Assembly (NCBI RefSeq): GCF_900113175.1
Contig: NZ_FOOK01000006.1
Coordinates: 62,001-126,000, forward strand
DNA from: Planifilum fulgidum
Lineage (GTDB): Bacteria > Bacillota > Bacilli > Thermoactinomycetales > DSM-44946
Direction of reading: 5' to 3'
DNA length: 64,000 nt
Below the pieces are notes generated by a model that did not search any database, had not been told where the DNA came from, and worked only from the letters and a program-made list of their open reading frames with translations. Below are positions 14,722 to 62,746 of this stretch, piece after piece. The stretch's first letter is position 1. Each line of letters starts with the position of its first letter. The translations under genes and the position numbers were made by a program.

Positions 14722-14843
14722 TCCTCATCTTCAGGGACCCTAGTGCCCCACCGGAATTGGCACCGTGTCCCGCCTCCGAAGCGAGAGGCGAAACGGGTTG
14801 CCGAGGCTTCATCGGGCCGGTCCCTCCGCCTCTCTGGATGAGG
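14722..14843 (-). ncRNA. SAM-I (S-box) riboswitch, sulfate assimilation operon
   Basis: On the minus strand the S-box landmarks occur in order: CCTCATCCAGAGAGGCGGAG, then GGCCCGATGAAGCC, CGGCAACC, a variable stem, GGTGCCAATTCC and closing GATGAGG that pairs with the 5' end. Binding of S-adenosylmethionine should favour the downstream terminator and shut off the operon. Confidence 0.95.
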
Positions 14844-14939
14844 AATAGGACGGAATATGCATAGGAATGTTTAAAATCTAACCTTCTTAATGAGTTATAA
14901 AATCCAATAAATAAGGTTAATTAACTATGTTTTAATCAC

Positions 14940-26405: not shown

Positions 26406-26518
26406 CTCTTATCCAGAGAGGTGGAGGGACTGGCCCGATGAAACCCGGCAACCGTCCGCGGCCATACGCGGAAATGGTGCCAATTCCTGCAGAGCCCAAC
26501 GGTTCTGGCAGATGAGAG
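26406..26518 (+). ncRNA. SAM-I (S-box) riboswitch, metNIQ
   Basis: S-box core elements occur in order: CTCTTATCCAGAGAGGTGGAG, the GGCCCGATGAAACC kink-turn region, CGGCAACC, GGTGCCAATTCC, and GATGAGAG closing P1 with the 5' CTCTTATC. SAM should repress methionine uptake. Confidence 0.96.
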
Positions 26519-41421: not shown

Positions 41422-41450
41422 TATGTAGCCGCATCATCCATACCCCGCTC

Positions 41451-41580
41451 CTTATCTCTCAGCGCCCCCGGCACTGCAGGAATTGGCACCTTTGCCCCGT
41501 TCAAGGCGCCACCCCGAGGGGTGACGGGGCAAGGTTGCCGGGCTTCATCGGGCCAGTCCCTCCGCCTCTCTGGATAACGA
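41451..41580 (-). ncRNA. SAM-I (S-box) riboswitch, hom
   Basis: On the minus strand TTATCCAGAGAGGCGGAGG, GGCCCGATGAAGCC, CGGCAACC, a long G+C variable stem, GGTGCCAATTCC and GAGAGATAAG follow in S-box order. P1 closes between the TTATC and GATAA ends. Confidence 0.96.
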
Positions 41581-61963: not shown

Positions 61964-61994
61964 AAAACAAAAAACCCCTCGTTTGAGGGGTTTT
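61964..61994 (-). terminator. Terminator of the DsbA/FrnE gene
   Basis: AAAACCCCTC/GAGGGGTTTT stem with a 4-base loop and T-rich flank on the minus strand (TTGTTTT). It begins at the stop codon of the gene. Confidence 0.85.
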
Positions 61995-62641
61995 CAGTCA
62001 CATCCGTCCGCATCGCAGGCGAAACCTCCGCGGGTTTTCCCGCTTCTCCTGCTCAGTTCCTCCTCGATCACCCGTTCCAGGACGTCCGCATCATAGAGGC
62101 CCGTCAACACCCGGCTGCCGATGACGAAGGTGGGCACGGCCTGGATATTCATTTCCTCGTAGGCATGGCGGAGGGCTTTCCGATGTTCTTCCCGATATCT
62201 ACCCGTTTCCAAGGCTTTGCGGAAATCCTCCCCGTCCAAACCCAACTCCTCTGCCAGCTCCGTCAGAACATGGATGTCGCCGATATCCTTTTCCTCCTGG
62301 AAAAAGGCGGTGAACATCCGGTGATTGTATACTTCTCCCTTTCCGTGCTCCTTGGCGTATTGATATCCCTCAAAGGCGAGGCGGGTGTGCGGTTGGGGGG
62401 ACACCCGGGGGAGGACCATTTTTACGCCGAAGCGTTCAGCAAGGGGATAGACCGTGTTTTTCCAGGCGTTTTTAAGATATTCCCCTTCCGGCCGCAGCGT
62501 CGGCTGTGGCTCGGGTCTGAGTTCGAAGGGCATCCACTCCACGTCCACATCTTTTCCCCGGACGGCTTCCTTCAGCGGAACCTCCGCGATGAAACAGAAG
62601 GGTCACACGTAGTCCGAGTAAACGCGAATCTTCAGCGCCAT
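61994..62641 (-). CDS. DsbA/FrnE-family thiol oxidoreductase, candidate selenoprotein (UPFC)
   Basis: A thioredoxin-fold protein of 215 residues if one TGA is read through. It starts at an ATG behind AGGGAGG and reads MALKIRVYSDYV, then TGA (62603-62605, codon 13), then PFCFIAEVPLKEAVRGKDV and on through a normal FrnE-type protein: DVEWMPFELRPEP, helical insert, and AVPTFVIGSRVLTG with the cis-proline near the end. In relatives codon 13 is the first Cys of CPFC. The C-terminus carries an extra CDADGC. Without readthrough only a fragment lacking the first strand would be made. Selenocysteine is inference; a point mutation is the alternative. Confidence 0.8.
62570..62594 (-). promoter_or_regulatory. 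SECIS-like hairpin downstream of the in-frame TGA
   Basis: Counting the U of UGA as 1, bases 19-23 (GCGGA) pair with 27-31 (UCCGC) around a GGU loop at 24-26. Bases 12-15 (UUUC) pair with 33-36 (GAAG), leaving U17 in the bulge. Escherichia coli fdhF SECIS likewise has a bulged U17 and a loop with G23-U24. Folding was done by eye. Confidence 0.5.
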
Positions 62642-62746
62642 GAAAAACGCCTCCCTCCCTTTAAAGCCGGTGAGAAAAACCCCTGTTGCGGCGGCGAAGG
62701 GGGTGCCGCGATCCCTTCGGCGGATCGCAAGGTACTCCCCTCCGCT

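Follow-up and report, generated by a model that had tools for sequence, protein, structure and literature searches.

A probable SECIS hairpin within a UGA-containing, FrnE-like DsbA-family gene of Planifilum fulgidum

Organization of the Locus

The window, a term used here for the whole 64-kb stretch of Planifilum fulgidum DNA that was analyzed, carries on its minus strand a gene for an FrnE-like oxidoreductase interrupted by an in-frame UGA (Table 1). Reading from the ATG at position 62641, a product of 215 residues is obtained if the UGA at codon 13 is taken as selenocysteine (Sec), a rare amino acid and the 21st of the genetic code; gene calling with translation table 11 yields just a downstream open reading frame of 184 amino acids, from which the active site is missing. 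The N-terminal part of the complete protein reads MALKIRVYSDYV-U-PFCFIAEV, and the UGA occupies the place of the first Cys in the CxxC motif of its relatives, giving a catalytic motif of U13-P-F-C16. Tyr8, Ser9, and Asp10, which precede the UGA, are invariant in all 38 aligned rows.

Table 1. Positions of the features discussed, numbered in the window unless a locus is named.
Feature	Position	Strand	Basis
FrnE-like DsbA-family oxidoreductase gene, predicted selenoprotein	61994..62641	-	Pfam DSBA, nearest structures, UGA read as Sec
Shine-Dalgarno-like AGGGAGGGAG, putative ribosome-binding site	62651..62660	-	Sequence; 9 nt before the ATG
In-frame UGA, probable Sec codon (residue 13, first of UxxC)	62603..62605	-	Translation, orthologue alignment
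Cys16 codon, putative resolving cysteine of UPFC	62594..62596	-	Invariant in 38/38 aligned rows
Lower stem of 4 bp, UUCA/UGAA, nt 13-16 with 32-35	62593-62590 with 62574-62571 (limits 62571..62593)	-	MFE fold; unconserved
Bulge U17-C18	62588..62589	-	MFE fold; U17 accounted for by Ile/Leu codon
Putative SECIS core (nt 19-31), GGU loop on the upper stem GCGGA/UCCGC	62575..62587	-	MFE fold and orthologue comparison
Apical loop GGU, nt 24-26	62580..62582	-	Orthologue comparison
CDADGC at C-terminus (C209, C214), CX4C	62000..62017	-	Translation; motif known from FrnE proteins
Terminal stop UGA of the FrnE-like gene	61994..61996	-	Sequence
Intrinsic-terminator-like hairpin, directly 3' of the terminal UGA	61970..61995	-	Sequence
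Second-subfamily DsbA-like loci with in-frame UGA	L156:1528; L157:1531 (-); L158:1531 (-); L214:1531; L215:1537; L216:1531 (-)		In-frame UGA

The product matches the Pfam family DSBA (PF01323) with 108.7 bits, and its closest solved structures by sequence are those of FrnE from Deinococcus radiodurans. The same protein was the best structural match (TM 0.82 by query length, with 26-27% identity in the structural alignment) of an AlphaFold2 model with a mean pLDDT of 87.6. Given a DsbA-like thioredoxin domain, UxxC for CxxC, and a C-terminal CX4C, the product is assigned to the FrnE subfamily of DsbA, which we take to be COG2761. A match to NCBIfam NF041057 (the Rcas_1661 selenolipoprotein family) was rejected because its 26.8 bits lie below the curated cut-off of 190 bits. 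A CX4C at the C-terminus, together with its role, has been described for FrnE proteins (PMC8945050). With the FrnE of D. radiodurans (PDB 5co3, 5cnw), the window protein shares the fold, a CP(W/F)C-type motif (UPFC in the window), and the C-terminal CX4C (PMC8945050); it differs in having Sec where the Deinococcus enzyme has Cys. Among the orthologues introduced below, a fixed-range search located the CX4C in 20 of the 30 UGA forms and in 37 of the 74 Cys forms.

DsbA-like selenoproteins with a UxxC motif have been known since 2005, when they were found in Sargasso Sea data (PMC1088965) and assigned to COG2761 (PMC1088965). Four in all were present in a bacterial survey of 2006 (PMC1794560), and others appear in the GOS data of 2008 (PMC2398784) and in the table of a 2026 review (PMC13188914). 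The FrnE clade of the Bacilli adds to that kind. Compared by published description, the known proteins and the window protein have in common the PF01323 domain, Sec as the first residue of UxxC, and a SECIS (or, in the window, its candidate) directly downstream, and the earlier sets differ from the window clade in that the latter sits in Bacilli. Neither the FrnE clade of the Bacilli nor its hairpin was found described in a full-text search of the literature, which does not prove that there is no such description.

Structure of the Hairpin

With the U of the UGA numbered 1, the minimum free energy (MFE) fold of positions 62605-62560 on the minus strand has an energy of -14.3 kcal/mol and pairs nt 19-23 with 27-31 as the upper stem. 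The initial annotation had described this stem, the GGU loop, a bulge holding U17, and a 4-bp lower stem, and all of these recur in the MFE fold; the hairpin is hence the favored structure, and its loop opens with a G that lies 21 bases beyond the UGA, as had been claimed. Published rules for bacterial SECIS elements ask for a loop of 3-9 nt, a stem of 4-16 bp, a spacing of 16-37 nt between UGA and loop, an MFE of -7.5 kcal/mol or lower, and a G within the first two positions of the loop, in most cases with G or U after it (PMC13188914). The window hairpin agrees with every one of them (3-nt GGU loop, 5 bp, spacing of 20 nt, -14.3 kcal/mol), including the spacing range to which the initial annotation had appealed.

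Agreement of this sort was not accepted as proof. In our own implementation, the loose rules fit 1023 of the 1827 TGA triplets in the window (56%), and they were set aside because more than half of the triplets pass; a strict shape, defined as five Watson-Crick pairs, a G[G/U]N triloop, and a spacing of 18-22, fits 2 of the 1827. The folding energy is likewise ordinary, 19 of 200 shuffled sequences folding at least equally well, and its z-score of -1.22 was dropped as an argument. An Rfam search at the hairpin gave no relevant match. In the fdhF element of Escherichia coli, a loop G followed by G or U lies at about nt 23-25, and the upper stem is decisive (PMC8659212). The window hairpin resembles it as a small hairpin right after the UGA with a G and then G or U in the loop, but has another stem sequence, a 3-nt loop with its first G one position further on, and an unconserved lower stem. 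The evidence that speaks strongly for a SECIS here is comparative, rather than folding energy or the loose rules.

Conservation in UGA and Cys Orthologues

Relatives were gathered from 117 loci, of which 116 could be parsed, providing 104 distinct sequences with either UGA (n = 30) or a Cys codon (n = 74) at position 13. Codons 19, 20, and 22, which contribute to the hairpin, are GCG, GAG, and CCG in all 30 UGA orthologues, whereas the same codons occur in 17, 10, and 34, respectively, of the 74 Cys orthologues; all three are found together in 30/30 UGA forms vs 2/74 Cys forms. Among the 79 conserved columns of the UGA set (residue at least 93% identical, with codons compared among the sequences sharing that residue), a single codon is used at just four, namely codons 13, 19, 20, and 22. 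Elsewhere in these genes, the mean share of GCG among the Ala codons is 22%, that of GAG among the Glu codons 32%, and that of CCG among the Pro codons 36%. C31, at a synonymous site of a Leu codon, is kept in 29 of the 30 UGA forms, and the exception (L023) retains a G-U pair. The 30 UGA sequences are related, and hence do not represent 30 independent events; the three independent starred U/C pairs of the tree all point the same way in most pairings, too few for significance in a tree-based sign test.

The loop behaves in the same manner. Its conservation in UGA-containing homologues had been named in the initial annotation as a check on the proposal, and was found throughout, with G24 and a G or U at position 25 in 30/30. 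Residue 21, which is encoded by the loop, is Val, Phe, Ala, Gly, or Asp in every UGA form; of the 74 Cys forms, 50 have Lys or Gln there. A 4-bp core of the upper stem is formed with P > 0.5 in 27/30 UGA vs 4/74 Cys forms, and the three UGA exceptions (L023, L052, and L057) form the upper stem when nt 12-45 are folded, i.e., with 11 nt from the UGA omitted.

Two parts of the described structure did not withstand the comparison. The lower stem reaches P > 0.5 in only 2 of the 30 UGA forms, with 66.7% of its cells paired vs 98.0% for the upper stem; it was therefore dropped from the conserved element, and the support that the initial annotation drew from it fails. The bulged U17, said there to match the SelB contact of E. 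coli fdhF, is found in 29 of the 30 UGA forms, but all 74 Cys forms have it too, since it serves as the second base of an Ile/Leu codon and so is constrained by the protein; the match is thus no evidence of a SelB contact. The one UGA form without U17 is L121, a second copy.

The covariation analysis that had also been proposed was run on the orthologues and found a single pair with a two-sided change, a value equaled or exceeded in 417 of 500 shuffles; no signal emerges because the nearly invariant upper stem hardly varies. A divergent paralogue (L159, genome G059) has UGA followed by CAGAGAC/GUCUCUG with the GGU cap exactly at nt 24-26, and against this one paralogue alone a compensatory difference is seen, in that pairs 20-30, 22-28, and 23-27, three of the five and in the same register, differ on both sides from the window.

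With one protein available in 30 UGA and 74 Cys forms, the family amounts to a compact natural experiment on the SECIS, and it shows unusually clearly how such an element shapes its gene. The synonymous sites and the one amino acid point to G21, G24, G30, C31, and the G[G/U]N loop as the bases probably needed by SelB, and to U17 and the lower stem as likely bystanders. That the hairpin might instead be another translational or regulatory element, e.g., for pausing or attenuation, which merely follows the UGA, is very improbable: it tracks the UGA at codon 13, as the distribution of the three codons demonstrates, and the two Cys exceptions resemble relics in genomes lacking SelB.

The Selenocysteine Machinery

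The P. fulgidum genome encodes a tRNA-Sec with UCA anticodon (68.8 bits), SelB (360.5 bits), SelA, and a UGA-containing SelD, all on one contig (C2), and with these four it is a Sec-decoding genome. Its sole match to an FdhA model lies below the cut-off and is without UGA. According to the 2006 survey, every selenoproteome contained FdhA or SelD (PMC1794560), a rule that is not contradicted here since the SelD gene of P. fulgidum carries a UGA.

The machinery also follows the UGA across genomes. In a class sample of 398 genomes, 48 had a close FrnE homologue; with one (G131) set aside, SelB was found in 18 of 19 genomes having the UGA form vs 9 of 28 other homologue genomes (Fisher p = 1.6e-5). 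For 50 of 80 named genomes, the corresponding values were 13/13 UGA and 20/37 Cys genomes, where the sequences of 3 of the 13 also occur, identical, in the class sample. In genome G141 (L056, L201), UGA-FrnE, SelA, and UGA-SelD are all found, but SelB was not recovered at the cut-off used, which may reflect an assembly gap, real loss being the other reading. In another UGA genome (G082), it is SelD for which nothing scored over the cut-off.

These data bear on a further alternative, in which the UGA is decoded as Cys or Trp through a reassigned code or a suppressor tRNA, free of selenium. Cys is indeed the alternative residue in 74 of the 104 orthologues. However, the gene itself stops at a UGA with the terminator-like hairpin directly after it, the upstream gene also ends in UGA, and tRNA-Sec, SelA, SelB, and SelD are all in the genome, so such decoding is considered highly unlikely; one gene would hold two UGAs, of which the first is probably decoded and the last terminates translation. 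Least probable of all, to the point of being negligible, is that the UGA arose by nonsense mutation or sequencing error, leaving a gene that is dead or restarts at the GTG at 62548 and a hairpin that is a by-product of Ala-Glu-Val-Pro-Leu codons, which would accord with the short table-11 frame and the ordinary folding energy but is contradicted by the same UGA in 30 distinct orthologues, by conserved residues on both of its sides, and by three codons without synonymous change.

In all probability, the hairpin is a bacterial SECIS inside an FrnE-like DsbA-family selenoprotein gene, directing Sec to codon 13. This was the central proposal of the initial annotation, and its support comes from a position and loop conserved in all 30 UGA forms, their loss in most Cys forms, and the presence of the Sec machinery.

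Proposed Course of Sec Insertion

The analysis itself yielded the hairpin and the finding that UGA forms selectively conserve it, along with the alignment of UGA with Cys, the protein family, and the Sec genes of the genome; the course of events outlined here is modeled on the SelB/SECIS route of E. coli (PMC4513850). SelB carrying Sec-tRNA-Sec would bind the hairpin at its upper stem and G[G/U]N loop. As in the E. coli route, the hairpin-bound SelB would be brought to the ribosome as it reaches codon 13. Sec would then be inserted for UGA on a fraction of the ribosomes, the rest terminating, to generate the U-P-F-C active site. The resulting enzyme is probably a cytoplasmic disulfide reductase or isomerase, the active site of which may be recharged through the C-terminal CX4C pair, as proposed for the FrnE of D. 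radiodurans.

Candidate Relics and Possible Reversion to Cys

Only two Cys forms retain all three hairpin codons, those of Paenibacillus naphthalenovorans (L075) and Paenibacillus sp. CC-CFT747 (L077), and a search for SelB found none in either genome. The probability of the 4-bp stem is 0.59 in L075 and 0.99 in L077, and a shorter fold keeps the stem in L077 but not in L075. About one such Cys form is expected from independent codon use (17/74 x 10/74 x 34/74 x 74), and hence the two candidates are suggestive only. A third Cys form (L022), whose genome has no SelB above the cut-off, groups as sister to L021, a UGA form (SH-aLRT 95), and its hairpin region reads GCGGAAGGTCCATTA vs GCGGAGGGTCCGCTG in L021, suggesting partial decay, with Sec lost first and the hairpin afterward.

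The tree requires eight U/C changes, at least three of which are forced by starred branches, but it leaves the direction of the Sec/Cys change unsettled. It is an evenly balanced proposition that Bacilli repeatedly exchanged the Sec of FrnE for Cys, with decaying SECIS elements left as relics, and that the SECIS dictates residue 21. Remnant SECIS elements have been shown in FdhA and a HesB-like protein (2006 survey, PMC1794560), and changes from Sec to Cys are described as uncommon events that concern chiefly FdhA and SelD (2026 review, PMC13188914). The FrnE family bears on the frequency of this reversion in bacteria; if the proposition is true, a family of thiol oxidoreductases would have undergone it, contrary to the view of FdhA and SelD as the main cases.

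Other UGA-Containing Genes and Minor Observations

A second DsbA-like subfamily with an in-frame UGA (ITVFSDFL-U-PFC), 37-42% identical to the window protein, was encountered in Bacilli as well as elsewhere in the Bacillota. The loop of its first hairpin frequently does not start with a G, and its SECIS may be a second hairpin at about nt 32-47, which in L157 reads TTGACC-AGTT-GGTCAA. Two divergent UGA-containing DsbA-like genes, the paralogue L159 (L159:1525, minus strand) and L217:1531 (minus strand), have different stems at nearly the same spacing, with loops of GGU and AGUUG, respectively.

The selD gene of P. fulgidum (L194) resembles the window gene in having UGA followed by a 5-bp stem with a GGN triloop (GGUCC-GGA-GGACC), and differs from it in stem sequence and in spacing (about 17 vs 20 nt). 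Most of the Bacilli selD genes read (L194-L211) have instead, some 34 nt past the UGA, a second hairpin, e.g., GGCGCAAGTTTTGCGCC, which varies in a seemingly compensating way; the position of the selD SECIS may have moved.

The second copy in Litchfieldia salsa (L121:3037) bears the UGA together with a further in-frame UGA and the changed base at U17, and is probably decaying. L128 comes from a record titled Chryseobacterium sp. ISL-80 but clusters closely in the tree with sequences of Cytobacillus/Bacillus; given this conflict with its name, the record is probably mislabeled or contaminated. Among plasmid homologues (2 of 25 records read), the Vibrio and Caballeronia copies have Cys, and a search for phage homologues gave no match. 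The window also contains three SAM riboswitches, at 26406-26518 on the plus strand and at 14722-14844 and 41449-41580 on the minus strand.
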